From Flavobacteriales bacterium (GTDB lineage: Bacteria; Bacteroidota; Bacteroidia; Flavobacteriales_C; GCA-002722245), in assembly GCA_002722245.1 (NCBI GenBank), contig PBLA01000002.1:1-45350 (forward strand): a stretch of DNA of 45,350 bases. Reading direction: 5' to 3'. Positions 280-33,695 of this stretch are shown one piece after another. The position numbers were made by a program, and so were the translations under genes. The notes below the pieces were generated by a model, which saw nothing but the letters and a program-made list of their open reading frames with translations, had not been told where the DNA came from and did no database searches. The number at the start of each line of letters is the position of its first letter. The first letter of the stretch is position 1.

Positions 280-1089
280 CTATTTAAGTATTTTATCACA
301 ATGTGGACATTTTTGTTGTGATTTGGATCCAGTCTTTTTTTTCTTGCGTTCCTCGATTTCGGCAACGAAGGCCGAGGAGAGCAATCCAGTAGGAATTGCT
401 ACAATACCAATACCAATTAAAGCCATAGCTCCACTAATCACCTTTCCTAGAGATGTGATAGGATAAATGTCACCATAGCCTACTGTAGTAAGCGTGGCTA
501 CTGCCCACCAAAGTGCTTCTCCCATATCTGCGAATGCTTCGGGTTGAGCTTTGTTTTCTACCACATACATGACATTAGCGGAGAAGAGAAGAACGATAAG
601 TGTGATGAATAAAGTAGATATTAATTCAGTTTTTATTCGTCCAACGGCCTTCCCCAAGGTCATTACGGACTCGGAATAGCGTAAAAGTTTGAAAATTCTC
701 ATTAAACGAAATAATCTTAATACCCTTAAAAAGATCAAATTCGTTTCCATAAACATGGGTAGATAAAACGGTAAAATAGAGAGTAAATCAATAATTCCTA
801 AAAACGAAAAGATGAATAGAAGGGGAGCTAAACGTTTCTTATCGGGATATAAATAGGTACTTGTAATTAATCGGACAATGTATTCAATGGTAAAGAAAAT
901 AACTACAAAGCTCTCTATAGCATAAATAGTACCTGATAGTGCCTCTTTAAATTCTTTAAAGCTTTCAAGTATAATAAGTAAAATGGAGATGATTATCAGT
1001 GTGGAACTAAAAACATTATAAGTTTTACTCAGTCTATTTGTTTCAATGTTACCATCAATGAGATTGTGTAGTCGTTTTAAAAAAGGCAT
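280..1089 (-). CDS. Voltage-gated-type potassium channel (six-TM ion transporter family)
   Basis: A 269-aa inner-membrane cation channel. Residues 25-45, 55-80, 88-112 and 120-137 look like S1 to S4. S4 carries regularly spaced arginines (LRVLRLFRLMRIFKLLR, 121-137) and is followed by S5 (155-175), a pore loop with the K+ selectivity filter TTVGYGD (201-207), and S6 (213-240). The protein ends with a short basic tail and CPHC (261-264), which may bind zinc. It is the last gene of the minus-strand polyamine-type operon and starts 9 nt after the FAD oxidoreductase gene. Cyclic-nucleotide-binding and RCK domains are absent, so any ligand control would be through the membrane part or partners. 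Identity as a K+ channel is firm; its physiological role here is inference. Polyamines block some eukaryotic K+ channels, which makes the linkage suggestive. Confidence 0.88.
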   Translation of the reverse strand: MPFLKRLHNLIDGNIETNRLSKTYNVFSSTLIIISILLIILESFKEFKEALSGTIYAIESFVVIFFTIEYIVRLITSTYLYPDKKRLAPLLFIFSFLGIIDLLSILPFYLPMFMETNLIFLRVLRLFRLMRIFKLLRYSESVMTLGKAVGRIKTELISTLFITLIVLLFSANVMYVVENKAQPEAFADMGEALWWAVATLTTVGYGDIYPITSLGKVISGAMALIGIGIVAIPTGLLSSAFVAEIEERKKKKTGSKSQQKCPHCDKILK

Positions 1090-1098
1090 GATATATCG

Positions 1099-2607
1099 TT
1101 ATTGATTGATCAAATTTGCAGCAAAAATTCCAGAGTCCAATGCCTCAAGCATAAGAGGAAGTCTTCCATTATCTGTTCCAGCAAAGAAAAAATTTTCGTT
1201 TTTGGTTTGTTCGTTTCTGTCATTAAATAAATAACCTTTAGTAGGGATAGGCATCGCGTGGCCCATTACTTTAATATGAGCGGATTGGATATACTCTTGA
1301 GTAGAAACATTGAAAAATTGATTCAAATAGTTTATACCCTCTTCAACAATGGCTTTGGGGTTCGCCATTATTTTTGGCATTTCCTTTCTTTCCGATGGAT
1401 TAAAGCACATATACATGGTTAGCACTTTATGATTATTATTCTGTGTTTCTGCATTTACAAACCCCATTAGTTTTTGATTTACGCGAAGCATATCGTTTTG
1501 CCATTTATGTTCTCCTGGAATACTTTTTTTAAGTTCAAAATTAATAGCTACCCATGGTGAGTACTGGGTGTTTGAAAACAAAGGATAATATTGAGGATAG
1601 ATGAATTTAAGTGCGTTTTTTTGTCCTCCGTAGATAATATTTTTAGAGGTAATTGTTTCTACTTTTTCTGTTTTTGTATTAAAAATTTTAGTGGCGTAAA
1701 AACGGCCGTTTTTCTCAATATTAAAAACAATGGATGAAGCCTTTAGTCGATTTCCATTAATATTACTCATTAGCTTTTTTATGAAGTAATAGTTCCCTTC
1801 GGGAGGAGAGAACAGCTCCGGTTTATTTTTGCCATAATAATCTCTACAGGCATAATAGTGTATTCCTGCAAGTGCAGATACATTCGAGCAATTAGACCCA
1901 TAGTCATCAATCATTTGATAATCGATTCCTGTGATAAGACTTGGATCATGAACCAAATACTTATCAATGAACTGAAAAAACGAGATGTCATTTAAAGCTC
2001 TGAATCTCTCATGAATTAAACGCGTTGGCATTTTCATTTCGCCAACATAAGGTTGTAATAAGTCAATAAAATCTTTCTTGTTTATTCCCGATTTAATTGG
2101 AGCATCTTGGAACCCTTTTTTCGTATAGCAGATCTCTTGATTCTCTTCGGGGATTATGAATTGTCGATCCTTAAATGTGAATTGATTCAGTGTATTGTCA
2201 TAAGCGATAACGTCCATCTTCTCTAGTAACTCTAGAGCCTCATGTCCATAATTTTGCGGATAGGATAAATCGTAATGAGCACCTTGAGAGAATAAGTTGC
2301 CTCCCACTTTAGTTGCCCCAGAGGTTCCGCCGAAATCATCATCCATTTCGCATAAAATGAAGTCTCCACTGTTTAATGAATTGGCTGCTGAAAGTCCGGC
2401 AATTCCTCCGCCAACAATCAACGTTTCAGTATGGACGCTAGTTGAGGAAGGAATGGAAATAGCATGCATAATTTTATGTCCTGTATTCATATTACTTCGA
2501 ACATGAATAGGAAAATGAATTTCTACCTTCTTTTGCTCAATGCTCCAACAACTGGTTAAACCAACTCCACCAATAGCCGATAATTTAAGGAAATGCCTTC
2601 TATCCAT
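1099..2607 (-). CDS. Exported FAD-dependent amine-oxidase-like oxidoreductase (Tat/lipobox)
   Basis: 502 aa. The N-terminus has a twin-arginine pattern (DRRHFLK, 2-8), a hydrophobic stretch and a lipobox-like LTSC (Cys20). This suggests a folded flavoprotein exported by Tat and anchored as a lipoprotein facing the periplasm. A Rossmann FAD-binding motif VGGGIAGLSAA (65-75) follows. The C-terminal FFFAGTDNG...EALDSGIFAANLI segment is the second FAD contact typical of the NAD(P)-binding/amine-oxidase (protoporphyrinogen oxidase-like) superfamily. The start overlaps the upstream membrane-protein gene by 8 nt, so the two are translationally coupled. Because the operon also holds SpeD and a spermidine-synthase-like gene, oxidation of a polyamine or aminopropyl product is a reasonable hypothesis; the sequence does not prove the substrate. 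Phytoene-desaturase-like activity is an alternative. Confidence 0.75.
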   Translation of the reverse strand: MDRRHFLKLSAIGGVGLTSCWSIEQKKVEIHFPIHVRSNMNTGHKIMHAISIPSSTSVHTETLIVGGGIAGLSAANSLNSGDFILCEMDDDFGGTSGATKVGGNLFSQGAHYDLSYPQNYGHEALELLEKMDVIAYDNTLNQFTFKDRQFIIPEENQEICYTKKGFQDAPIKSGINKKDFIDLLQPYVGEMKMPTRLIHERFRALNDISFFQFIDKYLVHDPSLITGIDYQMIDDYGSNCSNVSALAGIHYYACRDYYGKNKPELFSPPEGNYYFIKKLMSNINGNRLKASSIVFNIEKNGRFYATKIFNTKTEKVETITSKNIIYGGQKNALKFIYPQYYPLFSNTQYSPWVAINFELKKSIPGEHKWQNDMLRVNQKLMGFVNAETQNNNHKVLTMYMCFNPSERKEMPKIMANPKAIVEEGINYLNQFFNVSTQEYIQSAHIKVMGHAMPIPTKGYLFNDRNEQTKNENFFFAGTDNGRLPLMLEALDSGIFAANLINQ

Positions 2608-3688
2608 TTTCTATTATCTTTTTAAGGTTCGGGTTTGAATTGTTGAATTTCCATATGATTCCATCAAGCACATAGTGAGTAGCTTGAGGAAGGGTAAGTA
2701 AGGCAGTTGCCAAGGCAATCAGAGTTGGGGAATGTTCAATATTTATCCAGTACGGCGAGACTATTTCGAATATTTCATGACGTTCTAGGTTAACCAGCAT
2801 ATCCCAAAAATACTCTTCAAAAAAACCAATGAAGAAAACCAACACAATTACGCTAAAGGAGTTCATCAAAGCTTCTGTAAATTGTAACTTTTTTCCTTTT
2901 TCTATTTCTTCTTCACCAATTTTGTATTTAATGATTAGTACTAGATATGGGACTCCATGAGCAACAACATTGGTTACTGAAAAGATATAATCAGAATTAA
3001 AATGCACGATTCCAATATACCAGTTTAAGCTGGTTGACAGAACCCACAGCACCTTCCCCCATGCAAACCCATTTTGTTTTGCTATTTTAATTTCCGAACC
3101 AATCCATATGAGCAATAAGATAAAATAAGCGATGTTCAGGTAAGAGAAGATTTGAATACTATCAATTAATTCAAACATTGGTAAGAAATCATGATCAATG
3201 AACCAATTAAATGATCTCTCTTTATCGAAATGCCAAAATATAATTGGGTAAACCATTCCTGTATAAATCGTCCATTTATCGAGTCTTTTTTTGAGTGTGG
3301 AACGCTTCTCTTTCTTTTTAAAAGCATACAAAGCCATGAATCCGTATTGTTGCTTGATAAAATGAAAAACAGCAATGTATGCTAATACCGACCAAAAGAA
3401 TTGTGCTGAAATCAGTGCAGTACCAAAAAGGATTGGAGCGAGTATTAAAGGAATATATCGAATCGACTTTTTGTGATTTAATCGATCGTTTTTGTTGAGA
3501 TAAGTCCTAAAAATTGTACTCCAAACATGGCAAACGTCAATTCCTAAAATAAAAACAAACCAAGCCCAGTTAGGCAAGCTTTTATTCTCTAAATCACCTG
3601 TAAACGCCCATACCCAAACAAGCCATACAGGTAAGAATAAGAATAGTAGATCCGTTCTTTTTGAGAATAGCCATACATTCTTATTCAT
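2600..3688 (-). CDS. Polytopic membrane protein with intramembrane histidines, unknown function
   Basis: 362 aa with roughly eight to ten hydrophobic segments (about 12-30, 40-55, 80-115, 140-155, 180-200, 210-250, 275-295, 320-340). I do not recognise a named family. Notable are histidines in or next to membrane segments: DVCHVWSTIF (about 51-60), AVFHFIKQQYGF (about 107-118), VVAHGVPYL (about 242-250) and PQATHYVLDGIIWKF near the C-terminus. Together with an Asp and Arg they could form a metal or haem site, as in integral-membrane oxygenases or desaturases, but that is inference. It overlaps the spermidine-synthase-like gene upstream and the FAD oxidoreductase gene downstream by 8 nt each, so all three are almost certainly made together. 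It may supply a membrane step between aminopropyl transfer and oxidation. Confidence 0.7.
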   Translation of the reverse strand: MNKNVWLFSKRTDLLFLFLPVWLVWVWAFTGDLENKSLPNWAWFVFILGIDVCHVWSTIFRTYLNKNDRLNHKKSIRYIPLILAPILFGTALISAQFFWSVLAYIAVFHFIKQQYGFMALYAFKKKEKRSTLKKRLDKWTIYTGMVYPIIFWHFDKERSFNWFIDHDFLPMFELIDSIQIFSYLNIAYFILLLIWIGSEIKIAKQNGFAWGKVLWVLSTSLNWYIGIVHFNSDYIFSVTNVVAHGVPYLVLIIKYKIGEEEIEKGKKLQFTEALMNSFSVIVLVFFIGFFEEYFWDMLVNLERHEIFEIVSPYWINIEHSPTLIALATALLTLPQATHYVLDGIIWKFNNSNPNLKKIIENG

Positions 3689-5234
3689 AGAAACTTTGAT
3701 TAAATTCAGTTCCTTTTAAATAGTATTTGAAAAGCACTGGGTTATGAATAGAATTAATTTCAAGGCTAGTGGTATCCCCTACTGGCTTTCCAAATTTGGT
3801 CATCATATCAAGTGCATCTGTAGTAAGCCATTTGGTGTTGTTGATGGGAAGTTTTTTAATGGATGAAAGTGTTGATTTCATTTGATCATTCGAGTAAATT
3901 TTCGATCCAATAATCCATCCCCATTCACCAAAAGATTGCACATGATTATGAATAGGTAGTGTATTAAAACCAGCTGATTGCATTGTTTTGTTAATGCAGT
4001 AAAAGGCTTTTGCTTGGAAGTATGGACTCGTAGCTTGAGTAATAATAATTCCATCCATTTTAAGGCGCTTTCTACAAAACGAATACATCTCTTTCGTGTA
4101 TAATCTAGAAAGCTCGATAGAACGTGGGTCAGGGAAATCAATAATGATTAAATCGTAGTATTGCGAGTCGTTTTCTAACGCAATAAAGGCATCCTGATTT
4201 AGAACAGTTACTTTTTTATTATGATAGGAGTTATTGTTTAATTCTTTAAAAACCGGATTGTTTGCTCCAAAATTAGTCATGTCGGGATCAAGATCAATAA
4301 TCTTAATGGACTCAACTTCAGGATACTTTAATACTTCTCTGATTCCGCATCCGTCTCCTCCGCCAAGAATAAGAATATTCTTTTTACTAGAATTCAAAAG
4401 CATAGGCGCATGCACTAATGGTTCGTGATAGAGCCATTCATCCATGGTATTAAGTTGCATACTATTATTTAGGTAAAGTATATGATGATTATAAGATGCT
4501 GTTAACGTGATTTTTTGATACTTAGTTTGTTGGGAGTAAACGACTTTATCGATATATCTACTTTGTTCCCCAAATAGAATGATTGGTTTAGCATAATATA
4601 TTCCGAAGACAATAACCATAAACAAACCTATGATGGCACTGAGTAAAACCTTTTTAAGCGTTTTATTTAAGCGTCTTGAGAACTTGAAAAATAAGAGAGA
4701 TGCAACAATTAAGTTCACCATTCCAAGGACAAAAGGGGTATACGTTAATCCTAAGTATGGTAGGCCTATAAAGGCGAAGAAAAGTCCACCAATTAAACTA
4801 CCATAATAGTCTTTTTCCATTACACTGGAAATATTAGCTTTTAAATCGTGATATCTCCCATTAATTCGTGTAACAAGAGGTATTTCCAGTCCGATTAAAA
4901 GCCCAACCAGAACAGCTAAAATGTAAATAAAAATTTCAATGTAATCGGTTACTCCCATTAAGGAATAAACCAACAGCGCGCACATTGAAGTTAGAAATGA
5001 TAATAAAAGTTCAGCGCCAATGAAATATTCAATCACATAGTTGTTTACGAGTTTACTTAATCTACTTCCCAACCCCATAGAGAAGAGCATTATAGACAAA
5101 ATTATAGTCCACTGAAAAACAGAATTCCCAAGGAAATAAGTAGCTAGGGTAGCAAGTACATATTCTGAAACGATTCCTGCTATTCCTGTAGCGAATAGCG
5201 AACTCATTAATATTTTCGATTCGGAAACTTTCAT
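3681..5234 (-). CDS. speE: Membrane-fused spermidine-synthase-like aminopropyltransferase
   Basis: 517 aa. Residues 8-215 form about seven TM helices. Residues about 230-480 are a spermidine-synthase fold: YHEPLVHAP (269-277) corresponds to the substrate-side YHE..xH motif, LGGGDG (290-295) is the decarboxylated-SAM binding loop, IIDLDP (312-317) the acidic ribose contact, and DFPDPRS (366-372) replaces the usual D-S/T-x-D-P active-site motif. Decarboxylated SAM would come from the SpeD encoded two genes upstream. TM-fused SpeE homologues are known as a separate long form. The acceptor is uncertain: it may be putrescine or spermidine, or a membrane-associated amine. It starts 3 nt after the preceding gene and its end overlaps the next gene by 8 nt. 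The fold assignment is confident; the substrate is not. Confidence 0.82.
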   Translation of the reverse strand: MKVSESKILMSSLFATGIAGIVSEYVLATLATYFLGNSVFQWTIILSIMLFSMGLGSRLSKLVNNYVIEYFIGAELLLSFLTSMCALLVYSLMGVTDYIEIFIYILAVLVGLLIGLEIPLVTRINGRYHDLKANISSVMEKDYYGSLIGGLFFAFIGLPYLGLTYTPFVLGMVNLIVASLLFFKFSRRLNKTLKKVLLSAIIGLFMVIVFGIYYAKPIILFGEQSRYIDKVVYSQQTKYQKITLTASYNHHILYLNNSMQLNTMDEWLYHEPLVHAPMLLNSSKKNILILGGGDGCGIREVLKYPEVESIKIIDLDPDMTNFGANNPVFKELNNNSYHNKKVTVLNQDAFIALENDSQYYDLIIIDFPDPRSIELSRLYTKEMYSFCRKRLKMDGIIITQATSPYFQAKAFYCINKTMQSAGFNTLPIHNHVQSFGEWGWIIGSKIYSNDQMKSTLSSIKKLPINNTKWLTTDALDMMTKFGKPVGDTTSLEINSIHNPVLFKYYLKGTEFNQSFYE

Positions 5235-5237
5235 GAA

Positions 5238-6041
5238 TTATTTACCAAAATAGATGGTATTATCGTCATCAAAATAAGATGATGGAGCATTTTCTAAATC
5301 GGCATATCCAACTCGGAAAACACTAAGAATAATTAATATAATTATAAGTGGGCCTAGAACTTTCCCAATTAACTTAAACTTCTTTTTTGATTTGTCCGAT
5401 TTTAAATCGGGAAGATATGGTGTAAGTTCCCAATCCAATAATGTCCAAGCTAAATAACCTCCTCCAATTACCATAATTATGACTCCGATAAACAACAAAA
5501 AGTTGGTTCCAAAGTACTTTCTGCTGAGTTCGTATTGAATAGGTTTATTTTGTAAAGGTTTCTTGTTGTGTTTGGGAAAAAACTGGTAGTAGTAAGTACC
5601 GGGCTTTTCTATTTCAACAACATATTCCATGTCTTCTTCATGATAAGTATCTCTCCAAACGTCTACTTCGTGGTAAACATCCTTAGTACAACCACCCACG
5701 TAGTTTTTATTTTCGTCTAAAAGCATAAGATCTAAAGCGCACCATTTTGTAGAGGTTCCTCTTAAATCATACTCAATTTCCATGGAATGAAGTTGAGAAG
5801 AGCTTATTTCGAAAGGTCCAATAATTCCACCACTATTAGGTAATGATCCATGTTCAATTTCTGAAGAAAATACACTAATCAGTATTCTAAAAACAATTAA
5901 TAAAACACCTAAACTTAGAATTGCAATAGCAGTAGGGAAGTGGTTATCTCTACATTTTATGGCCTCCTGAATATGTCGCAGCCTTATTTTTTTTCTACGT
6001 TCAGCGGCTTTTCGGCTTCTCTCTTGATAATCTGTAGCCAT
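5238..6041 (-). CDS. Three-TM membrane protein of the SpeD/SpeE operon, unknown function
   Basis: 267 aa. A very basic cytoplasmic N-terminus (1-35, rich in R and K) is followed by a TM helix (about 38-60), an apparently extracytoplasmic region (about 62-175), and two more TM helices (about 177-200 and 225-248). The outer region has the look of a small beta-sandwich with aromatic and Asp/Glu residues, and ends in a TYYYQFFP segment typical of an edge strand before a membrane return. I do not recognise a family name. It lies between speD (5 nt upstream) and the spermidine-synthase-like gene (3 nt downstream), so it is probably a dedicated membrane partner of that enzyme rather than an unrelated passenger. 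Confidence 0.7.
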   Translation of the reverse strand: MATDYQERSRKAAERRKKIRLRHIQEAIKCRDNHFPTAIAILSLGVLLIVFRILISVFSSEIEHGSLPNSGGIIGPFEISSSQLHSMEIEYDLRGTSTKWCALDLMLLDENKNYVGGCTKDVYHEVDVWRDTYHEEDMEYVVEIEKPGTYYYQFFPKHNKKPLQNKPIQYELSRKYFGTNFLLFIGVIIMVIGGGYLAWTLLDWELTPYLPDLKSDKSKKKFKLIGKVLGPLIIILIILSVFRVGYADLENAPSSYFDDDNTIYFGK

Positions 6042-6046
6042 TCTAT

Positions 6047-6409
6047 TTAGATACTTTTGAGGATGACGTTTTCACCTCTTTTGATCATTTTATGTTTTAA
6101 GATTTCGCAACCAAAAGCTTGCTTTAAATAATTAAGCGCTGCCTGGAAATCCATTTTATCAGTACAGGTAAACATATCTATGGCTGCGTAGTCATGCTCT
6201 GGCCAGGAATGGATGGCAAAATGACTTTCTTGAATAACAACTACTCCAGAAACACCTTGTGGGGCGAATTTGTGAAAGATTGTTTTTACAATTGTTGCGC
6301 CAGCCAACTCGGCTGCTTTTTTCATATGTTCTTCAACATATGTTTCATTGTCAATCTTCTCTCTATCGCATTGCTCATATTCAGCAATAACATGATATCC
6401 TAAAGTCAT
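6047..6409 (-). CDS. speD: S-adenosylmethionine decarboxylase proenzyme (SpeD, short bacterial class)
   Basis: 120 aa, the usual size of the pyruvoyl-dependent prokaryotic AdoMetDC. The processing site is Glu61-Ser62 in ESHFAIHSWPEHDYAAIDMF: Ser62 should become the pyruvoyl group after self-cleavage, with His67 (HSWPEH) the processing residue and Cys82 (in FTC) the catalytic acid by family analogy. It converts SAM to decarboxylated SAM, the aminopropyl donor. It starts 1 nt after the DUF350 gene and is followed 5 nt later by a membrane protein gene and then the spermidine-synthase-like gene. Many Bacteroidota make spermidine through carboxyspermidine instead, so a SpeD dedicated to this operon suggests a specialised product. 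Confidence 0.93.
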   Translation of the reverse strand: MTLGYHVIAEYEQCDREKIDNETYVEEHMKKAAELAGATIVKTIFHKFAPQGVSGVVVIQESHFAIHSWPEHDYAAIDMFTCTDKMDFQAALNYLKQAFGCEILKHKMIKRGENVILKSI

Positions 6410-6410
6410 T

Positions 6411-7262
6411 TTAAAAGCACCAAGTAATTAATAATGCCGATGAAATATACGCCATAGCTTCAATGAGTCCAGCACCAATATTCGGCTTGCTTTGCTCTAC
6501 TAATTCAACTTTTAAATCATAGCCTGGAAGAATTACTTTATCAGTAATTAGTCGAGTAACAGGTAGAGCAATTAAGGCAATAAGTAAAAGAATTCCTGTC
6601 GTTACAAAAGTTTCCGAGAGAGAATCATATGAAAATGAAACAGCATATGACAGTACAACAGCTATTCCAACTAAAGAACCAGCATAACCTAAACCAACAG
6701 CAATGTTATCTTTTTCAATTTCAGTATGAATATTATACGGTGTAATGATGTTATATACAAATGATGAGAGAATTAGAGCTACTTGAGCAATCGCCCAATA
6801 AACAACAATCATGAGGTTTTCATCGGCACCTTTACTGGCACCTAGAATAATTAATCCAGTTGCAATATAATTCGCGGCTTCAATTATTCCTGTTCCAGAG
6901 TTCTGGTCTTCTAGGATTTCTTTGGAAACCTTGAATTTGTTGAAGATGACATATTCATTTATAATAGTAGAAATGTTCAACAAAAAAATGGCACCTAAAC
7001 CATAAATAGCAATGGCCATAAGGTCTGCTTCCAAAGAAACATGTTCTCCGAGTAATGCACTTCCAATGGCCAACAAAAGACCTACAAAGTAACCCACATA
7101 AGAGAATGAAAAGGCTAAATTGTCTTTTTCCAATAATTCGTACCTAGTATTTAATTTAGGATGGAACAGCTTGTAAACTACTCTTCCAATAAAAATCAAA
7201 ATTAAACTTGCAACAAAGTAAATTGCTGAATTTAAAAGCTCGTTAAAGTTAATGTGTTCCAT
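6411..7262 (-). CDS. Duplicated DUF350 integral membrane protein
   Basis: 283 aa made of two similar halves with about eight TM helices in total. The first half has FSFSYVGYFVGLLLAIGSAL followed by a YGLGAIFLLN segment. The second has VGLGYAGSLVGIAVVLSYAV followed by hydrophobic helices and a GLIEAMAYI-type ending; GTGIIEAANYIATGLII in the middle is the matching end of half one. This glycine-rich pattern of internal repeats is characteristic of DUF350 (the YjfL-type family). The function of DUF350 is not established. It is found in operons with DUF4178, SpeD and SpeE-like genes, as here (2 nt after the lipoprotein gene, 1 nt before speD). Confidence 0.82.
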   Translation of the reverse strand: MEHINFNELLNSAIYFVASLILIFIGRVVYKLFHPKLNTRYELLEKDNLAFSFSYVGYFVGLLLAIGSALLGEHVSLEADLMAIAIYGLGAIFLLNISTIINEYVIFNKFKVSKEILEDQNSGTGIIEAANYIATGLIILGASKGADENLMIVVYWAIAQVALILSSFVYNIITPYNIHTEIEKDNIAVGLGYAGSLVGIAVVLSYAVSFSYDSLSETFVTTGILLLIALIALPVTRLITDKVILPGYDLKVELVEQSKPNIGAGLIEAMAYISSALLITWCF

Positions 7263-7264
7263 AA

Positions 7265-7960
7265 TTATTTTCCGTAACCAAAACCGCTTCCTCTACCACT
7301 TCTACGAGAGGATGCTGTTCTTCTTGATGATGACCAATTGTTGTTTCTGGCTTTTCGTTCAAAGAAATTAGGATTCCTTTTTTTTGCATTGGCACTACTG
7401 GTTCCATAATAATTACCACTCCCTCTGAAACCAGATCCATAAAATGCTCTATTGGTTCTGTAATAATGACTGTAGTAGTTGTTGTACATAGGATAGTAAC
7501 ACGGGTAGTAACCTAGTCCAAACATACTTCTCATAAAAGCATATTGTCCATAAAAAACCCAAAATCGATCACTTCCACTTCCCTGCCAATGACCGTATCT
7601 TGAATTTCCAACGTAATTTGCATAACCGGCTGGTGCAACTACTTTAGATACTTTTCCGGTGGAGTCTTTGGTAACAATTTGCATTCCTAGGTTTCCTTCA
7701 TTTGCTTTAAAATAATTGTAATCTACAAGCAACCATTCTGTTTCGCTATTGGAAAATTCTCCTGATTTAGATTCTTTAAGTACTGAATATTTGTGATAAA
7801 AATCATCGCTTCTCACATCCATATCATCCAGAATAATGGTGTAAGCTTTTTCGTTCTTCATGCTTTTGATCATTTGATCAACAGGATTAGGAATGTAGTG
7901 GTTATTACTACCACAACTTACTAATAGAAGCATAAGAAATATTGCTAGTATATTTTTCAT
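7265..7960 (-). CDS. Lipoprotein with Gly/Ser/Arg/Tyr-rich tail, unknown function
   Basis: 231 aa from the start chosen here, whose first residues form a lipoprotein signal ending LLLVSC. A longer reading from 8002 would overlap the DUF4178 gene and push the signal peptide inwards, so I reject it. The middle part (about 20-120) is a mixed domain containing a YNYFKANEG segment. After a Tyr- and Trp-rich stretch, the last 70 residues are a low-complexity region rich in Gly, Ser, Asn and Arg, reminiscent of surface or matrix-interacting tails. No family is recognised. The gene sits 4 nt after DUF4178 and 2 nt before DUF350, so it is part of the polyamine-type operon and probably its periplasmic or outer-membrane component. 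Confidence 0.72.
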   Translation of the reverse strand: MKNILAIFLMLLLVSCGSNNHYIPNPVDQMIKSMKNEKAYTIILDDMDVRSDDFYHKYSVLKESKSGEFSNSETEWLLVDYNYFKANEGNLGMQIVTKDSTGKVSKVVAPAGYANYVGNSRYGHWQGSGSDRFWVFYGQYAFMRSMFGLGYYPCYYPMYNNYYSHYYRTNRAFYGSGFRGSGNYYGTSSANAKKRNPNFFERKARNNNWSSSRRTASSRRSGRGSGFGYGK

Positions 7961-7964
7961 GTTT

Positions 7965-8504
7965 TTATTTCTCCGGCGAAGATAAGAAATTTGAGAATTC
8001 AAATTCTTTTACGATACGTCCTTTAACAGCATCCATTTCTGTTTCACCCCATCTCATAATTCCAATGAACTCGGATTCATCTTCATTATAAAATACCCAA
8101 TTTACAAATTCAGACCATTCGTCATCGTCATCATCAACACTTTTACAATGGCCTAAAAATTCATCGGAAAGAAAATAGTTCTTGTCTTGGTAAGAGACTC
8201 TTTTAGGTGCATTATCAGTGTCTACAATAGTTTGTTTAACCAATGGACCTAATTCGAACATCTTAATCGGTTCACTTATATCGATTTTTAAAGGGGTAGA
8301 GTCGTCAATATGAATAAACATTGATTTACTCCCATTATCAACTGTATACTCAAAAGTGTACTGATTATTTCCCCAGTCATACTCTGTTCTATCTTTAACA
8401 ATCCAGGATGCCAAATCGTAATCGAGTATGGCCCCTTTCGTCAAATTAAAGAGGGTTGGATCCTCAATTGGTTTTTCTTTTTTAAAAAAATCGAACAGTC
8501 CCAT
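7965..8504 (-). CDS. DUF4178 domain protein
   Basis: 179 aa, soluble, without signal peptide or TM helix. The region from 20 to 165 fits DUF4178: a start like NLTKGAILDYDLASWIVKD, then WGNNQYTFEYTVD, then a strand-rich part with DKNYFLSD and a WVFYNEDESEFIGIMRW segment. The role of DUF4178 is unknown. The family repeatedly occurs beside DUF350 and SpeD/SpeE-like genes, and the arrangement here reproduces that. It is the second gene of the operon, 2 nt after the 58-aa membrane protein gene and 4 nt before a lipoprotein gene. A cytoplasmic regulatory or substrate-presenting role is possible but only inferred. Confidence 0.78.
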   Translation of the reverse strand: MGLFDFFKKEKPIEDPTLFNLTKGAILDYDLASWIVKDRTEYDWGNNQYTFEYTVDNGSKSMFIHIDDSTPLKIDISEPIKMFELGPLVKQTIVDTDNAPKRVSYQDKNYFLSDEFLGHCKSVDDDDDEWSEFVNWVFYNEDESEFIGIMRWGETEMDAVKGRIVKEFEFSNFLSSPEK

Positions 8505-8506
8505 GA

Positions 8507-8683
8507 TTATAATTTTCTTCCTAAGATAAAACCAAATACTGTACCTACAAGCACTGAAGCAAGTATTGTTCCGATTCCTAAAAATAATTTTAAGAGTAAG
8601 AGAATGAGAATGAACCCTCCAACTAGTTTTAGAAGCCTTGCGGGTTTCTTCTTTAGTGGTATTGCGTGGTATATTTTTGTCAT
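8507..8683 (-). CDS. 58-aa single-pass membrane protein, first gene of the operon
   Basis: This short gene encodes 58 residues starting MTKIYHAIPLKKKPARLLKL. A basic N-terminus is followed by a long hydrophobic stretch (about 21-54, one or two TM helices, rich in Leu, Gly and Val) and the end GRKL. It stops 2 nt before the DUF4178 start and a plausible promoter lies 35-65 nt upstream, so it is very likely translated. No family is recognised. Small proteins of this type often regulate or scaffold membrane complexes; here the obvious partners are the many membrane proteins of the same operon. Confidence 0.65.
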   Translation of the reverse strand: MTKIYHAIPLKKKPARLLKLVGGFILILLLLKLFLGIGTILASVLVGTVFGFILGRKL

Positions 8684-8846: not shown

Positions 8847-9446
8847 TTACAGGAGTGAAAAGGCATAAAACATTTCCCTACATATTTGTGCACTGCGCTC
8901 AATGTATTTTTCTAATTCTTTTTCCGTGCCGTCGGCTATTTTTGGGTCATCGTATCGGATCGGAATACGCACACTCGCTGAGGGAATGAAGGGACAATTT
9001 TGATCCGCATGATCACATGTCATGATAGCGGCAATATTCTTTTGGGGATTAAATTCATGATCAAATGTTTTTGAAAAACAAATGATTGGATGTTGATTCT
9101 CATTGTAGCTTACAGCATAAACTGGATTATTATTATTGGATAATGGTATAATGTGTAACCCGTGGTATTCAAGTGCTTGAATCGCTGAAGGGTAAAATGC
9201 GGTAGCCTCTGTCCCTCCAGAATAACAATGGACGCCAAAAAAACCAAAATGTTGAGCCGCAACTTGTGCCCAAACCTGTGATAAGTGACTTCTTCTGGAG
9301 TTGTGTGTGCATATGAAAATGAGATCTGCAAACCCTCCTTGTTTTTGTATAAATTGTGTTAAGCAAGCGAGTTCCTTTTTTCTCGATTTAGTAATAAGAT
9401 GAAATTCATTTAAGGCCGTTGATATGGTGGATTGAAGATTCTGCAT
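8847..9446 (-). CDS. Arsenate-reductase-like low-molecular-weight phosphatase
   Basis: 199 aa from the chosen start. The P-loop CTHNSRRS (46-53) is the C-x5-R(S) signature of LMW protein-tyrosine phosphatases and thioredoxin-coupled arsenate reductases. The segment TCDHADQNCP carries Cys144 and Cys151 spaced exactly like the redox cysteines of Staphylococcus-type ArsC (with Cys46 as nucleophile). This favours arsenate reduction or a related redox phosphatase role over a plain tyrosine phosphatase. The N-terminal 38 residues are an extension. A longer reading frame begins at 9503, but a promoter-like element lies inside that extra stretch, so I use the internal ATG. There are no other arsenic genes nearby, so the substrate is uncertain. 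Confidence 0.75.
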   Translation of the reverse strand: MQNLQSTISTALNEFHLITKSRKKELACLTQFIQKQGGFADLIFICTHNSRRSHLSQVWAQVAAQHFGFFGVHCYSGGTEATAFYPSAIQALEYHGLHIIPLSNNNNPVYAVSYNENQHPIICFSKTFDHEFNPQKNIAAIMTCDHADQNCPFIPSASVRIPIRYDDPKIADGTEKELEKYIERSAQICREMFYAFSLL

Positions 9447-9461
9447 TGTTATTACTTTGTA

Positions 9462-9492
9462 CAATTTTACAATCCAAATTTGAATCTTCAAA
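9462..9492 (-). promoter_or_regulatory. Candidate promoter of the ArsC-like gene
   Basis: Minus strand: TTTG (9492-9489), 19-nt spacer, TAAAATTG (9469-9462), one mismatch to TAnnTTTG. The start codon at 9446 lies 15 nt downstream, which supports that start over the longer frame from 9503. Confidence 0.4.
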
Positions 9493-9592
9493 GACTTAAC
9501 CAAAACTTAATAGATCTTCCGTCGTTTATTCCTAAAAAGTGTTAAAAATTAAACTTTTTACTACATATTCATGTTCTTTACGTTGAAGTAGT

Positions 9593-24043: not shown

Positions 24044-27000
24044 TTATTCTTCGTTAGGACCTTGTAGACGATCTCTAATCTCTCTTAAACGTTCTATTTT
24101 TCCTGGTCTTCTTAAGGTTATACAAGTTTTTGTATAGTAATGATGCATCTCGAGGAATTTAACTTGAATAGGATCCCAGGCACTCATAGAGTGGATTATT
24201 TTCATATCAATTAATTCTTGAGCCAAAGAGTTACTGATTCTGTCAAATTCCTCTTTTTCTCTTCCCAAATAGTCTAGGTCAGCATCACAAAGAACTTCTT
24301 CTAAATGATTTTGTGGATTTTGAGGAATTTTTGTGGCTAAAATCATTCCTTCTATTCTTTGAACTTGTGTTTCGGTAAAACCATATCGGGGCAACTCTCT
24401 TTTGGCTAATTTGGCACCTTCTGACTCATTGTCTTGGTATTTATTTAAAAATCCGCTATCGTGAAATAAAGCTGCAGCTTTTACCAACATTACGTCTTCT
24501 TCACTGAGTCCTTCAGCCCTTCCAATTCTTTCTGCCGCTTCCATTACATCTAAAGTGTGATGAGGACCATGGTATTTTAATTTTGATACGAATTCATCTT
24601 TTTCCAATTTGTCAATAAAGTAATCTTTTACATTAATGAAATTTTGTTGGGTGTATACATTGAAATTCAATAATTCGAAAAATTTTCTATTGGGTGTTTC
24701 ACCAATTTCATCCTTACATAAATCTGATTTTATTCGATTGACGTAGTACATGTCAATGGCTCCTTTGTTTTTAACGGGTAGTTTACCTCTGTATTCACAA
24801 TCGAAATAAGGTTTAATGAATTCATATGTAGCTCCAGAAATATTGATACGCCCTTCCTCGGCACTCGTTTCCATTCGGGCTGCTGTGTTTACAGTATCTC
24901 CCCAAACATCGTAAAGGAATTTCTTTTTTCCCACAACTCCTGCAATTAATCCTCCAGTATGTAAACCAATTCTTAAATGCCATTGAGGCCTTCCCGTTCC
25001 TTCTCGCACATCGCGTTTTTGACGCATATATTTTTGGAATTGAAAAGCAGCTAGCACACAGTCCACCGGATTTGTTTTATTCCGAATTGGGATTCCTCCA
25101 ACACACATATAAGCATCTCCAGAGGTTTTAATTTTCTCGATATTTAATTTGCCTACAATATCATCAAACTGTGCGAAAGAATCATCTAATTCTGAAACAA
25201 GTTCTTTTGGACCATAGTTCTCTGTGATTTTGGTGAAATTTTTAAAGTCGGCAAACATTACCGTCGCCATCTTATAGCTTCTTGGTGTTGACTTTCCGGT
25301 TGAAACCAGTTCCCGAGCAGTTTCTCTAGGGAGGACATTAAGCAAGACTTCCTCCTCTTTGTTTTTTTCTTCTTCAAGTACTTTATTTTGGTCCTCTAGT
25401 TTTCTTTTTTGTTTTTCAACTTCACGTGTTCTGATCCTAACTTTTTCTTCCAATATTTCTCGCTGGAATTTAGAACGATTGATTCTTGAATAAACTAAAT
25501 AAAGGCTCAATCCTCCAACTACTAAAATCATCAAGGCAATGAACCACCATGTAAGATAAAAAGGCGGCTTTATTGTGATTTTTATTTTTTGTTCACTGTA
25601 ATTCCATACCCCATCACTATTGGCTACGTTAACTCTGAACACATAATCCCCATAGTTGAGATTGCTAAACTTAAATGTACGTTTACCTTTGGAGTAACTC
25701 CAGTCTTGTTGCCATCCCTCAAGTTGAGTTTTAAAGAGGTTTTCTGTTGGTGATGAATAATGAAGACCATCCACTTTTATGATAAAATTGTTTCTAAAGT
25801 GAGGAATACTTACTTCATCATCACCATTGATTTTAGTTAGATATTTTGACTCTTTTGTCAATATGTCTTTTCCTTTGTAATAGATCGAAGAAATGTATAC
25901 TTTGGGTGCAATTTTGTTTTTATTTTCTTTTTTGGGATTGATAATATTATAACCATTAATTCCTCCCATATAAATTTGACCCTCTTGATTAACGTATTTT
26001 GCACCCGAATTAAATTCTAAACTTTGAATACCGTCTTCAGTATTGAAATTTTCGAAAGTTTCTTTTCCTAAATCAAGTCGAGATAATCCCCCATTTGTGC
26101 TTAACCAAAGGGTATTCATGTGGGGAACGATACCGTAAATCGTATTATTTGGAAGTCCATCTTTTGTAGAATAATGCTGGGTAGTGGAGTTTGAGGGATC
26201 AAACTGAATAAGGCCCCCTCCGTAAAGACCAATCCATACATGATGCTCGCTTGCCGCAATCGACAAACCAAGTAAGTGTTCAACTTCGGGCAAAGGAATC
26301 CGGGTAAAAGTACTTTGGGTCGGAATAGTTAACTTAGAAAGAGCATATAAGCCTGTGGGGTATGCCGTGAAAAAAACCTGATTATTAAAAACAGTGAAGT
26401 CACGGACATTTTTTATTTGCCATCTATTTTCCAGCTCAAGGCTATCGTTGTAGACGGATAAAAAGTTTAAACTTCCAATGAGTAGTTTACCCTCGAAGGA
26501 AAAAAATTTAAAGATGATATCTTGCTTTTCCTTCACAGAAACATCAATTTTAGTAGAGTCCAAAACAAAACATGAATCTTTGTAATTTAGGGCAAAAACA
26601 CCTTTCCCTGTTCCAATAAGAATTTTTTTCTCGAATTCTGTGATGTCTAAAACAGGACCTTCAACATTTACCCATTCATATTTTTTTGTGCCTTTGTAAT
26701 GTATTTGAATGCCATTATCATATCCCGAAAATAGAATGGAATCATTTTCAAAAAATGACCAGCAATTATTCCGAGACTGAGAGGAATACAAAGAGGGTTT
26801 GAATTTTAGGAATTGGTTTTTTGATGGATCAATTTTATTAATCCCTTTGTCCGTACCTAGCCAAATAACTCCGAAACAGTCCTCAAAAATACATCTGATA
26901 TTGGTGCTTAATAGGTTGTGTTTTTTTTGATCCCCAAGATTCCATGGGATTGGGTTTTTTTCATAGAGGTCATAAATTAATACGCCATTACTTTTAGTAG

Positions 27001-27772
27001 CCACCCATAAATTACCACTTATAAGTGCACAGTCATTAATCCCTTCTGCAATAGAAAAAGTAGATGTTTTTTGAAGGCGTTCATCATATTGAATTAGTTT
27101 TTCGGGAAAAGCGATATTCACACTTATTTCATCTCGAAATACATTTAAAATGGGTTGATCAAATTGTAGAATAGTTTCATATGAATTTTTGTCATTTAAG
27201 CGATAAATAGACGAATCAGAAACCAGAAATAGCTGGTCTTTAAAGAGAAAGCTTTTTGTTACTGAATGAGCAAATTTTAAAGGTGTTACTGTTGCTTCTT
27301 GGTTTGTTAACTTTATTCCATATAATCCATTTGTGCATGAGAGAACTAGAGAGTCTTTAGTAATAATTGATGAAGAGGTGATTTTACCGATGGATTTATT
27401 GTTTAATCCGATTGGGTAATTATTGAATGTTTTAGCAACGGGATCAAATATTGAAATACCTAAAGCACTCGTAAAACATAATGAATCTTTACCCCAATCA
27501 TTGATTTCAATGATGTAATTGCTCAAAATACTTGATGAGTCAAATGGATTTGAAAAAAAGTTTTCAAAATCATACCCATCGAAACGAGTCACCCCATCTT
27601 GAGTGGCTATCCATAAAAAACCTTTCTGATCTTGATGAACCTGTTCAACAAAGCTTTGAGGTAAACCATCATCAATGGTATATTTATTCGACTTCAATAA
27701 ATCAAAATTGATCGCTTTACTGGATGTCGCGTTCACAAAAACTAAAAGAAAAAAGGCATAACGATACAGCAT
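24044..27772 (-). CDS. Propeller-Y_Y_Y receptor fused to adenylate cyclase and HD phosphohydrolase
   Basis: 1242 aa. A signal peptide (1-20) is followed by a two-component-regulator-type beta-propeller (about 25-640; repeats such as GLPQSFVEQVHQDQKGFLWI, FGVIWLGTDKGINKID, NTLWLSTNGGLSRLD), a Y_Y_Y domain (about 657-738), one TM helix (about 741-763), a coiled coil (about 770-815), and a class III cyclase domain (about 835-1010). Metal residues Asp842 and Asp886, adenine-selecting Lys882 and Asp955, and transition-state Asn962 and Arg966 are all present, so it should make cAMP. The C-terminus is an HD domain: His1068, His1071/1072, His1104-Asp1105 and acidic CDADLDYLG (1162-1170). A histidine kinase is the usual output of this sensor type; here the outputs are a synthesising and possibly a degrading enzyme. 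Single gene, no signalling neighbours. Confidence 0.88.
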   Translation of the reverse strand: MLYRYAFFLLVFVNATSSKAINFDLLKSNKYTIDDGLPQSFVEQVHQDQKGFLWIATQDGVTRFDGYDFENFFSNPFDSSSILSNYIIEINDWGKDSLCFTSALGISIFDPVAKTFNNYPIGLNNKSIGKITSSSIITKDSLVLSCTNGLYGIKLTNQEATVTPLKFAHSVTKSFLFKDQLFLVSDSSIYRLNDKNSYETILQFDQPILNVFRDEISVNIAFPEKLIQYDERLQKTSTFSIAEGINDCALISGNLWVATKSNGVLIYDLYEKNPIPWNLGDQKKHNLLSTNIRCIFEDCFGVIWLGTDKGINKIDPSKNQFLKFKPSLYSSQSRNNCWSFFENDSILFSGYDNGIQIHYKGTKKYEWVNVEGPVLDITEFEKKILIGTGKGVFALNYKDSCFVLDSTKIDVSVKEKQDIIFKFFSFEGKLLIGSLNFLSVYNDSLELENRWQIKNVRDFTVFNNQVFFTAYPTGLYALSKLTIPTQSTFTRIPLPEVEHLLGLSIAASEHHVWIGLYGGGLIQFDPSNSTTQHYSTKDGLPNNTIYGIVPHMNTLWLSTNGGLSRLDLGKETFENFNTEDGIQSLEFNSGAKYVNQEGQIYMGGINGYNIINPKKENKNKIAPKVYISSIYYKGKDILTKESKYLTKINGDDEVSIPHFRNNFIIKVDGLHYSSPTENLFKTQLEGWQQDWSYSKGKRTFKFSNLNYGDYVFRVNVANSDGVWNYSEQKIKITIKPPFYLTWWFIALMILVVGGLSLYLVYSRINRSKFQREILEEKVRIRTREVEKQKRKLEDQNKVLEEEKNKEEEVLLNVLPRETARELVSTGKSTPRSYKMATVMFADFKNFTKITENYGPKELVSELDDSFAQFDDIVGKLNIEKIKTSGDAYMCVGGIPIRNKTNPVDCVLAAFQFQKYMRQKRDVREGTGRPQWHLRIGLHTGGLIAGVVGKKKFLYDVWGDTVNTAARMETSAEEGRINISGATYEFIKPYFDCEYRGKLPVKNKGAIDMYYVNRIKSDLCKDEIGETPNRKFFELLNFNVYTQQNFINVKDYFIDKLEKDEFVSKLKYHGPHHTLDVMEAAERIGRAEGLSEEDVMLVKAAALFHDSGFLNKYQDNESEGAKLAKRELPRYGFTETQVQRIEGMILATKIPQNPQNHLEEVLCDADLDYLGREKEEFDRISNSLAQELIDMKIIHSMSAWDPIQVKFLEMHHYYTKTCITLRRPGKIERLREIRDRLQGPNEE

Positions 27773-28002: not shown

Positions 28003-28329
28003 ATGATCAAAGTTTCAGACAGTGCAAGAGATCAGGTAGCAAAACTTAAAAAGTTGGAAGAAATGCCCGCAAACAGCTTCATTAGAGTAGGCGTTAAAAG
28101 TGGTGGGTGTTCAGGATTGTCCTATGATTTGACATTTGATACAACGCTTCAAGAAAATGACCAAGAATTTGAGGACAATGATGTGAAGGTGGTTGTGGAA
28201 AAAAAGAGTTTGCTTTATTTGGCAGGTACAACATTGGAATACGAAGGAGGATTAAACGGAAAAGGATTTAGTTTTAATAATCCAAATGCATCACGGACTT
28301 GTGGTTGTGGCGAAAGTTTTGCCGTGTAA
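28003..28329 (+). CDS. sufA: A-type iron-sulfur carrier protein (HesB/IscA/SufA family)
   Basis: 108 aa, the usual length. The three conserved cysteines are Cys36 (SGGCSGLSYDL), Cys100 and Cys102 (RTCGCGESF), which bind the iron-sulfur cluster or iron passed to client apoproteins. It is the first gene of the SUF operon, with promoter and dyad directly upstream, and 89 nt before sufB. ErpA/IscA naming is equally possible on sequence; the context favours SufA. Confidence 0.9.
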   Translation: MIKVSDSARDQVAKLKKLEEMPANSFIRVGVKSGGCSGLSYDLTFDTTLQENDQEFEDNDVKVVVEKKSLLYLAGTTLEYEGGLNGKGFSFNNPNASRTCGCGESFAV

Positions 28330-28418
28330 ATAGTTTCAAATGTTTTTACTAAACAAATGAATGATGGTACCCACAAAAAATATGATTAGCGTCCCAGTAG
28401 TAACTTAATTAACGTTAA

Positions 28419-29861
28419 ATGAAAGAAGAAGATAAAATAATTGAAGAGGCAACCTCCGGAGAATATAAATACGGATTTGTTTCAGATATTGAATCTGAAA
28501 AGTCCCAAAAAGGACTAACAGAGGATACGATTCGATTTATCTCAGAAAAGAAGAATGAGCCATCATGGCTACTAGACTGGCGATTAAAAGCCTTTAAAGT
28601 TTGGGAGCAGATGGAAGAACCTGATTGGGCTCATATATCTTACCCTAAACCTGATTTTCAAGATATCATATATTACGCTGCTCCTAAGCCGAAAAAGAAG
28701 TATGAAAGTTTAGACGAGGTTGATCCTGAAATTCTTAAAACATTTGAGAGATTAGGTGTGCCAATTGAAGAACAAAAAGCATTGGCGGGTGTGGCAGTAG
28801 ATGTAGTAATGGATTCAGTTTCTGTAGCCACTACATTTAAGGATAAGTTGAGCGAATTAGGCATTATATTTTGTTCTTTTTCTGAAGCTGTTCAAGAACA
28901 TCCAGAGCTCGTTCAAAAATATATAGGTTCTGTGGTTCCGCAAAGAGACAACTTTTATTCTGCGCTAAATTCAGCTGTTTTTTCAGATGGTTCTTTTTGC
29001 TATATACCTAAAGGAGTTCGATGTCCAATGGAATTGTCTACTTACTTTAGGATTAATGAGGCTAATACAGGTCAATTTGAACGTACGTTGATTATTGCAG
29101 ATGAAGGGTCTTATGTTTCTTATCTGGAGGGATGTACAGCGCCACAAAGAGATGAAAACCAACTTCACGCTGCGGTTGTTGAAATTATTGCTCTTGATCG
29201 TGCTGAGGTTAAATATTCTACTGTTCAAAATTGGTATCCTGGTGATAAAAAAGGAAGAGGAGGGATTTACAACTTTGTTACTAAAAGAGGGATTTGCCAT
29301 CATCACTCCAAAATTTCTTGGACTCAGGTTGAAACAGGATCTGCAGTTACTTGGAAATATCCGTCTTGTATTTTAAAAGGAGATCACTCGGTGGGAGAAT
29401 TTTTCTCTGTGGCAGTGACCAACAATATGCAACAGGCAGATACAGGAACAAAAATGATCCATCTCGGAAAAAATACCAAAAGCACGATTGTTTCTAAAGG
29501 AATTTCAGCAGGGAAATCTCAAAACTCATATAGAGGGCTAGTAAAAGTGGCCAAAGGAGCCCAAGGTGCAAGGAACTTTAGTCAATGTGATTCTTTATTA
29601 ATTGGTGCAAAATGCGGTGCACATACTTTTCCATACATTGAGTGTCAAAATAAATCTGCCAAAGTTGAGCATGAGGCTACGACATCAAAAATTGGAGAAG
29701 ACCAGTTATTCTACTGTAATCAGCGTGGAATAAAGACCGATAAAGCAATTGGATTAATTGTTAATGGTTTTTGTAAAAACGTGATGGATAATTTACCAAT
29801 GGAATTCGCTATTGAGGCAAAGAAGTTATTAGAAATTAGTTTAGAGGGATCAGTGGGGTAA
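28419..29861 (+). CDS. sufB: Fe-S cluster assembly scaffold SufB
   Basis: 480 aa, full length. Diagnostic segments are the N-terminal helical part with [14 protein letters not shown] (47-60), the beta-helix core with [25 protein letters not shown], and the C-terminal [20 protein letters not shown], whose Cys409 corresponds to the cysteine that receives sulfur or ligates the nascent cluster. It forms the SufBC2D complex with the next two gene products. It starts 89 nt after sufA and is followed 17 nt later by sufC. Confidence 0.96.
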
Positions 29862-29878
29862 AAATCGAAATTAGAGTT

Positions 29879-30640
29879 ATGTTAAAAATAAAAGGATTAA
29901 AAGCCGAAATTGAAGGCAAAGAAATTTTAAAAGGATTAAATCTGGAAGTTAACCCAGGAGAAGTACATGCGATTATGGGGCCTAATGGATCCGGGAAATC
30001 TACATTAGCGTCTGTATTGGCAGGGAGAGAAGAGTATGAAGTGACCGCAGGGTCAGTTCATTTTGAAGGAAAAGACTTATTGGAATTGGCTCCTGAGGAG
30101 CGAGCAGGAGAAGGTGTTTTCTTGGCTTTCCAATATCCGGTTGAAATACCAGGAGTATCAAACATCAATTTTATTAAAACAGCGGTAAACGAGGTCCGAG
30201 AATACAGAGGCTTACCAAATTTAGAAACCAAGGAATTCATGACGCTTCTTAAAGAAAAGCAGCAACTTGTTGAACTTTCAGGTAAGTTAGCCAATCGATC
30301 GGTGAACGAAGGTTTTTCTGGGGGAGAGAAAAAGCGAAATGAAATTTTTCAAATGGCGATGCTTGATCCTAAACTCGGGGTTTTGGATGAAACAGATTCT
30401 GGATTAGATATTGATGCATTAAGAATTGTTTCCCATGGTGTAAATGAGTTAAAGTCAAAAGACAATGCTTTTGTTGTTGTTACGCATTACCAAAGACTCT
30501 TAGATTATATTGTTCCTGATTATGTGCACGTTTTGCTTGATGGAAAAATCGTGAAGACGGGTTCAAAAGAATTGGCGTTGGAATTAGAGGAAAAGGGGTA
30601 TGATTGGATCATTAAAGAATTGGAGGAGGAAAAACTATAA
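29879..30640 (+). CDS. sufC: Fe-S cluster assembly ATPase SufC
   Basis: 253 aa ABC-type ATPase. Walker A GPNGSGKST (34-42), Q-loop in LAFQYPVEIPGV, signature SGGEKKR (147-153), Walker B ending in LDETDSGLDID (Asp170, Glu171) and switch His in VVTHYQRLL. The LDETDSGLDIDALR string is characteristic of SufC rather than transporter ATPases. ATP hydrolysis drives rearrangement of SufB and SufD during cluster building. It lies 17 nt after sufB; 75 nt separate it from sufD and include a small hairpin. Confidence 0.96.
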   Translation: MLKIKGLKAEIEGKEILKGLNLEVNPGEVHAIMGPNGSGKSTLASVLAGREEYEVTAGSVHFEGKDLLELAPEERAGEGVFLAFQYPVEIPGVSNINFIKTAVNEVREYRGLPNLETKEFMTLLKEKQQLVELSGKLANRSVNEGFSGGEKKRNEIFQMAMLDPKLGVLDETDSGLDIDALRIVSHGVNELKSKDNAFVVVTHYQRLLDYIVPDYVHVLLDGKIVKTGSKELALELEEKGYDWIIKELEEEKL

Positions 30641-30652
30641 ATGGTTGAAAAT

Positions 30653-30669
30653 TGCGCTTGAAATGCGCA
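30653..30669 (+). repeat. Small GC-rich hairpin between sufC and sufD
   Basis: TGCGC-N7-GCGCA with no T run after it, so it is unlikely to stop transcription. It may affect mRNA stability or the ratio of SufC to SufD. Confidence 0.35.
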
Positions 30670-30715
30670 TTAATCAATTCGTATAGTTGGTTGTACAATA
30701 AATATTAGGCATAAG

Positions 30716-33267: not shown

Positions 33268-33271
33268 AATC

Positions 33272-33688: not shown

Positions 33689-33695
33689 TGTATAC

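Follow-up and report, generated by a model that had tools for sequence, protein, structure and literature searches.

Which molecule receives the aminopropyl group in bacteria whose aminopropyltransferase is fused to a transmembrane (TM) domain? This question is raised by a ten-gene locus on the minus strand (positions 8683-280) of a 45,350-nucleotide (nt) window, the whole stretch of DNA that was analysed, which covers positions 1 to 45,350 of contig PBLA01000002.1 (assembly GCA_002722245.1) of a Flavobacteriales bacterium. In this study, the ten genes (g1 to g10 in order of transcription, all on the minus strand) were confirmed as an operon belonging to a bacterial system that is widespread and little understood, and as more than a chance array, since these gene families occur as a group in dozens of genomes. 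Moreover, two tail-bearing proteins of the operon end in lysine, and a membrane-attached protein with this ending is carried by nearly all relatives of the system in several phyla. We propose, with belief and doubt about evenly matched, that the operon performs a membrane-bound protein modification, in which the TM-fused enzyme (TM-SpeE) would aminopropylate the C-terminal lysine of an anchored tail protein.

The first candidate acceptor is the product of g3 (7265..7960), a lipoprotein of 231 amino acids recognised from its sequence and its homologues, with the lipobox LLVSC and an Arg/Ser/Gly-rich tail that ends in GSGFGYGK-COOH (terminal Lys codon at 7268-7270). The second is the product of g6 (5238..6041), a TM-beta-TM protein of 267 amino acids with a third TM segment and a tail that ends in NTIYFGK-COOH (terminal Lys codon at 5241-5243). 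All g3-family lipoproteins were Lys-ended (15/15); the figure for DUF4178 proteins was 4/15, and no lysine bias was seen in SpeE, flavin adenine dinucleotide (FAD) or DUF350 proteins. One of the two operon architectures described below (type B, the commoner one) has a separate small TM protein; of its 43 automatic picks, 41 terminated in -HK or -GK, and for the other two a neighbouring frame ends in FYHK. Furthermore, in a blind scan, which picked tail-like frames without regard to their last two residues, 84 of the 109 TM-SpeE loci gave a Lys-ended tail, most of the non-Lys picks being the C-termini of DUF4178 proteins; after hand reading of the frames the number rose to about 100 of 109, a count that was not blind. 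The pattern, which was checked further in 21 proteobacterial TM-SpeE loci and six plasmid loci, spans Bacteroidota, Pseudomonadota, Gemmatimonadota and other groups. The ending -HK was the commonest (47 picks in the blind scan), and the penultimate residue was variable (H, G, I, V) where the terminal lysine was constant. The tail proteins therefore hold a conserved candidate acceptor lysine of the kind that a hypusine-like lysine aminoalkylation would need. A literature search for a link between C-terminal lysine and aminopropyl transfer, or for Rv2599-Rv2601, returned nothing relevant. In one locus (L110:4775-6758) the DUF4178-tail-DUF350 unit is tandemly duplicated, and both tails end in YYHK.

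The ending of the tail was found to follow the type of enzyme encoded beside it. Where a GSPS-type ATP-grasp ligase is encoded together with a candidate tail (17 loci), no tail was Lys-ended, and -GG was the ending in 13 of 19 picks. The difference between TM-SpeE and ligase-type loci reached 1.9e-13 in Fisher's test on loci with a candidate, a value that overstates the evidence because loci from a single genus are not independent of each other, although the loci span several phyla. The substrate required by an aminopropyltransferase is an amine, and that of a ligase a carboxylate, which would account for lysine beside SpeE and glycine beside the ligase. These data suggest that in GSPS-type loci the ligase uses the C-terminal glycine as its acceptor. 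In Pseudomonadota, the partner proteins of GSPS-type ligases (L239-L257, L152) were mostly -GG-ended, like YjfM of E. coli. A GSPS-type ligase (PF03738, GSP_synth) gave no match in the window operon.

The enzymes that such a modification would require are encoded in the same operon, which contains both the sole SpeD and the sole SpeE of the genome. Enzymes of the SpeD family decarboxylate S-adenosylmethionine (SAM) to decarboxylated SAM (dcSAM). The product of g5 (6047..6409, 120 amino acids) was assigned by NCBIfam to the class 1b SAM decarboxylases (TIGR03330/SAM_DCase_Bsu, 137.6 bits against a cut-off of 75.65) and has the ESH processing site in the sequence VIQESHFAIHSWPE; it would be the source of dcSAM. 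The product of g7 (3681..5234, 517 amino acids) carries a 7-TM domain fused to an aminopropyltransferase with the spermidine-synthase fold, and residues 5-509 matched the TM-fused polyamine aminopropyltransferase profile NF002956 with 531 bits (cut-off 472). Its AlphaFold 2 (AF2) model had a predicted local distance difference test (pLDDT) score of 93.4, and Foldseek related the fold to solved SpeE structures with a probability of 1.00 and a target-normalised template modelling score (TMt) of about 0.7-0.8. In addition, Q240, D265, E266, Y269, H270, G291, D316, D366, D369 and P370 were invariant in 68 sequences, and g7 has the features of an active dcSAM site, namely DE..YHE, GGGDG, an acidic ribose residue and the catalytic motif D..DP. 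Catalytic residues are thus kept, and g7 would transfer the aminopropyl group from dcSAM to an acceptor other than putrescine. Li and co-workers reportedly found in 2019 that the TM-fused enzyme does not replace spermidine synthase, that its acceptor is probably not putrescine, and that no spermidine is formed. Lysine has a butylamine side chain, which matches the four-carbon amine of putrescine; for this reason the side-chain amine of the terminal lysine of g3 (...FGYGK), of g6 (...IYFGK) or of both is put forward as the acceptor. The chain end may thread into a narrow acceptor pocket to give Ne-(3-aminopropyl)lysine, a hypusine-like residue.

The side of the membrane on which this reaction may take place is suggested by charge. 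The mean Lys plus Arg counts of the g7 loops were 2.2/0.2/2.4/0.6/3.5/0.9/3.8, with 1.3 on the C side, and this pattern indicates that g7 probably has a cytoplasmic N-terminus, seven TM segments and a catalytic domain outside the cytoplasm. An outside catalytic domain fits the location of the lipoprotein and of the FAD protein, predicted to be exported by twin-arginine translocation (Tat). The TM part of g7 contains the invariant acidic residues E24, E75 and E117, which could serve a cationic substrate, and the domain may carry cationic dcSAM across the membrane. Taken further, an outward-facing aminopropyltransferase would receive dcSAM through its own membrane domain, its product would be oxidised by the exported FAD enzyme, and a hypusine-like residue would result in the envelope, an extension that we consider possible but rather doubtful.

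The later step would fall to the two genes that follow. The product of g9 (1099..2607, 502 amino acids) is an exported protein of the FAD amine-oxidase superfamily (PF01593, Amino_oxidase, 25.5 bits against a cut-off of 19.8), and its N-terminus has a Tat-like MDRRHFLKLS stretch followed by a lipobox-like LTSC. RRxF-type starts were found in 60 of 79 FAD homologues, and most of the others were R-K variants. We guess that g9 acts after transfer, either by an aldehyde-forming oxidation or by removal of the group, so that it may oxidise or reverse the modification outside the cell, perhaps helped by the intramembrane, His/acid-rich g8. The latter (2600..3688, 362 amino acids) is a polytopic membrane protein of an unnamed family, modelled by AF2 with a pLDDT of 94.4, whose invariant residues are H54, H109, H244, H338, D51, D233, E291, E292 and D342. 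This set of His, Asp and Glu residues suggests an intramembrane metal site, although this is a guess from the model. No consistent Pfam match was obtained among 68 g8 relatives and no sequence match in the Protein Data Bank (PDB); the PDB fold search gave no clear match either, the best Z of 6.6, to rhodopsins and UbiA-like proteins, lying within background. The four invariant histidines raise the speculative idea that g8 might resemble Blh/Brp-type membrane oxygenases.

The partnership of these genes with TM-SpeE was observed well beyond the window. Among 296 Bacteroidota genomes, close g8 relatives were present in eight genomes besides that of the window and adjoined TM-SpeE in 9/9, nine further genomes had weak g8 matches only, and FAD homologues of g9 were present in 11 genomes, including that of the window, and adjoined TM-SpeE in 11/11. 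A wider scan yielded more than 500 g8 relatives in many phyla; the window and 80 further loci were inspected, and TM-SpeE was near g8 in 63/81 and an FAD homologue in 69/81, counts that measure the partners of g8 and not those of TM-SpeE, since the scan was seeded with g8, and many of the 81 loci were cut by contig ends. As all close Bacteroidota homologues adjoin TM-SpeE, g8 and the FAD protein are more than local additions, and other phyla have the module as well. The original prediction had linked the oxidase, the channel and the proteins of unrecognised family to the system; this held for g9 and g8, whose linkage extends far beyond close relatives, but only in part for g1, which was seen in no other locus, and for the K+ channel, which accompanies the system in a minority of related loci. 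In three loci (L079, L084, L085) two SpeE-like genes were present; the shorter one (403 amino acids in L079 and L084) adjoins g8 and the FAD gene, and the full TM-SpeE lies in a convergent DUF350/DUF4178/PspA operon. Poribacterial g8 relatives (L074, L076, L081, L082) had 41-46% identity to g8 of the window and no operon partner in their stretch, and their neighbourhoods gave no functional hint.

Two architectures were distinguished. Type A comprises DUF4178, a lipoprotein, an 8TM DUF350 protein and TM-SpeE, with SpeD, CesT-PspA and the K+ channel variable; type B comprises SpeD, a zinc-ribbon/DUF4178-TM-beta-TM protein, the small TM protein, a 2TM DUF350 protein, TM-SpeE, the FAD protein and g8. 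The window operon is a hybrid with a type A front and a type B rear. In the front, g2 (7965..8504) encodes a DUF4178 protein of 179 amino acids that is predicted to be cytoplasmic (PF13785, 45.8 bits, cut-off 25, 8.6e-12), and g4 (6411..7262) encodes a duplicated DUF350 membrane protein of 283 amino acids with two DUF350 units (1.7e-52). The type-B DUF4178 protein has its beta domain between two TM segments, for example ...DNSWANVNVALINEETND...YYHGYSDGESWTEGS...GKYHLL..., and its C-terminal region aligned to residues 22-176 of g6 (hhalign probability 97.8, E 8.6e-13) when the query was a profile of nine g6 homologues. The predicted order in g6 is a cytoplasmic N-terminus, TM1 (39-55), an external beta domain, TM2 (181-197), a cytoplasmic Lys-rich loop, TM3 (228-244) and an external tail, and by eye TM3 and the tail resemble the separate type-B small tail protein. 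Stand-alone g6 homologues occur in seven loci (L072, L077, L078, L087, L153, L223, L224), and L061 and some proteobacterial loci encode the DUF4178 part, the TM segment and the tail as a single protein. From the profile match and these one-protein versions, g2 and g6 look like the split halves of a type-B DUF4178 protein, with the tail joined to g6.

A membrane-anchored enzyme that keeps its dcSAM residues could also act on another substrate, and an alternative that we hold to be unlikely is that it aminopropylates a lipid head group (e.g. phosphatidylethanolamine) or a small amine, the lysine tails serving otherwise. The failure to replace spermidine synthase and the acceptor left open in the reported work of Li and co-workers would agree with this, but it leaves unexplained why two unrelated tail families end in lysine and the tails of GSPS-type loci in -GG. 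The expectation of the original prediction that the product is a free amine or a lipid was not supported, the comparative evidence favouring a lysine at the C-terminus of a protein anchored in the membrane; the membrane-centred aminopropyl-transfer system itself found support. An equally improbable explanation, in our judgement, is that the -HK or -GK terminus is a binding, sorting or metal motif read by a partner (DUF350, the beta domain or g8) and that g7 acts elsewhere. The frequency of -HK, whose histidine could bind metal, and the four invariant histidines of g8 speak for such a motif, but it is the penultimate residue that varies and the lysine that does not, and the ending tracks the type of enzyme, as a substrate would. 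Ordinary synthesis of a spermidine-type polyamine with unrelated neighbours appears very unlikely, even though the NCBIfam name of g7 is 'polyamine aminopropyltransferase' and SpeD adjoins it, because SpeE enzymes of the ordinary kind are soluble, the neighbours, none of them polyamine genes, have been kept across phyla, and the TM-fused enzyme reportedly gave neither spermidine nor complementation.

Several points weigh against modification of the terminal lysine outside the cytoplasm. Lysine as the acceptor is itself deduced from conservation and correlation. DSSP ran TM5-TM6 of the g7 model as a single unbroken helix (135-184); on this reading there would be six segments and the catalytic domain would lie in the cytoplasm. 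To our knowledge, the export of dcSAM has no precedent. Some g8 relatives stand alone without an operon partner, e.g. those of Poribacteria, so that g8 is not confined to the TM-SpeE system. Furthermore, the lysine rule is not absolute: neither the blind scan nor hand reading found a Lys tail in L122, L233 and L236 or in L086 and L222, the last two on cut contigs, and L070 and L071 have a divergent TM-SpeE beside GSPS with a -GG tail and no Lys tail. In these two loci GSPS and TM-SpeE might act sequentially on one C-terminus.

The aminopropylation proposed here may be compared with known systems. Clusters of an MFS-spermidine synthase fusion, S-adenosylmethionine decarboxylase and DUF350 were reportedly described by Li and co-workers in 2019; they share the enzyme pair and DUF350 with the window, and the view that the acceptor is not putrescine is common to both, whereas the present analysis proposes an acceptor and further partners. 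Hypusine/deoxyhypusine of eIF5A is likewise a polyamine-derived aminoalkyl group on a lysine side chain, but the modification proposed for the window would place an aminopropyl group from dcSAM on the C-terminal lysine of an envelope protein, by unrelated enzymes. In yjfIJKLMC of E. coli (DUF2170 (CesT-like), PspA-like, DUF2491, DUF350, the DUF1190 protein YjfM and YjfC), a basic Gly/Ser-rich anchored tail protein also lies beside a polyamine-type enzyme; the difference is an ATP-grasp amide ligase with a -GG tail, YjfM adjoining YjfC, in place of an aminopropyltransferase with a -K tail. The peptide-spermidine ligase activity of YjfC has been published (Pederick 2023, as cited in PMC12568646). 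Ravi et al. 2024 (PMC11237479) described operons that combine a spermidine-synthase domain fused to 7TM with DUF350, DUF4178 and a lipoprotein, and often also CesT-PspA; operons related to these have a K+ channel, a GSPS-type ligase, AdoMet decarboxylase or polyamine oxidase. With their second group the window shares the 7TM spermidine synthase, 8TM DUF350, DUF4178 and a lipoprotein, g3 lying in the place where the Ctha_1186-type lipoprotein would be expected; it differs in lacking PspA and CesT and in adding SpeD, the TM-beta-TM protein, g8, the FAD protein and the K+ channel. The CesT/Tir-PspA dyad is absent from the window operon, and the PspA of the genome sits on another contig; CesT-PspA is present in other loci and directly upstream in L072, the nearest relative. 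A link to PspA-type envelope stress, mentioned in the original prediction, is documented in that paper. The word 'lysine' is absent from its main text, so the terminal lysine was not reported there. The core of SpeD, TM-SpeE, DUF350, DUF4178 and lipoprotein had already been described, and what is new here is the linkage of the FAD protein and g8, the apparent origin of g6 and the terminal lysine.

The remaining genes complete the operon. Searches of the ten proteins against Pfam and NCBIfam profiles bore out the earlier assignment of DUF4178, the two DUF350 units, SpeD, the TM-fused aminopropyltransferase, the FAD protein and the K+ channel, and Pfam gave no family for g1, g3, g6 and g8, the four proteins that had been called unrecognised. 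Matches below the cut-off to ATLF (g2), EAGR_box (g3) and Chordopox_A20R (g6) were dismissed as chance. The product of g1 (8507..8683), known from its sequence, is a single-TM protein of 58 amino acids, and no relative was found in the loci examined. The product of g10 (280..1089, 269 amino acids; Pfam/NCBIfam) is a voltage-gated-type K+ channel; together with DUF350 and DUF4178 it may couple the modification to envelope or ion status, and it is the neighbouring PspA, CesT and K+ channel genes that point to envelope stress. All ten open reading frames were confirmed in the window. The intergenic distances from g1 to g10, with the ATG at 7960 as the start of g3, were 2, 4, 2, 1, 5, 3, -8, -8 and 9 nt, in agreement with the gaps of 1-9 nt or 8-nt overlaps originally noted. 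The window starts at the contig end, and the sequence downstream of g10 lies outside it. Elsewhere in the window, judged from translations, a same-strand gene 163 nt upstream of g1 (8847-9503) encodes a 218-amino-acid protein that resembles a low-molecular-weight phosphatase/arsenate-reductase relative, apparently ordinary SUF iron-sulphur cluster assembly genes lie at 28003-34016, and a 1242-amino-acid protein (24044-27772) has apparent two-component-sensor-like repeats, an adenylate-cyclase-type domain and a C-terminal HD-like domain.

In conclusion, the acceptor of the TM-fused aminopropyltransferase, an enzyme found in very many bacteria, had been left open, and the terminal lysine provides a testable candidate. 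If the proposal is true, envelope proteins would undergo a post-translational modification that is new, and the SpeE-type and YjfC ligase-type systems would be two routes to a polyamine-like group on a protein C-terminus. Moreover, the FAD protein and the unnamed g8 family would gain a pathway.

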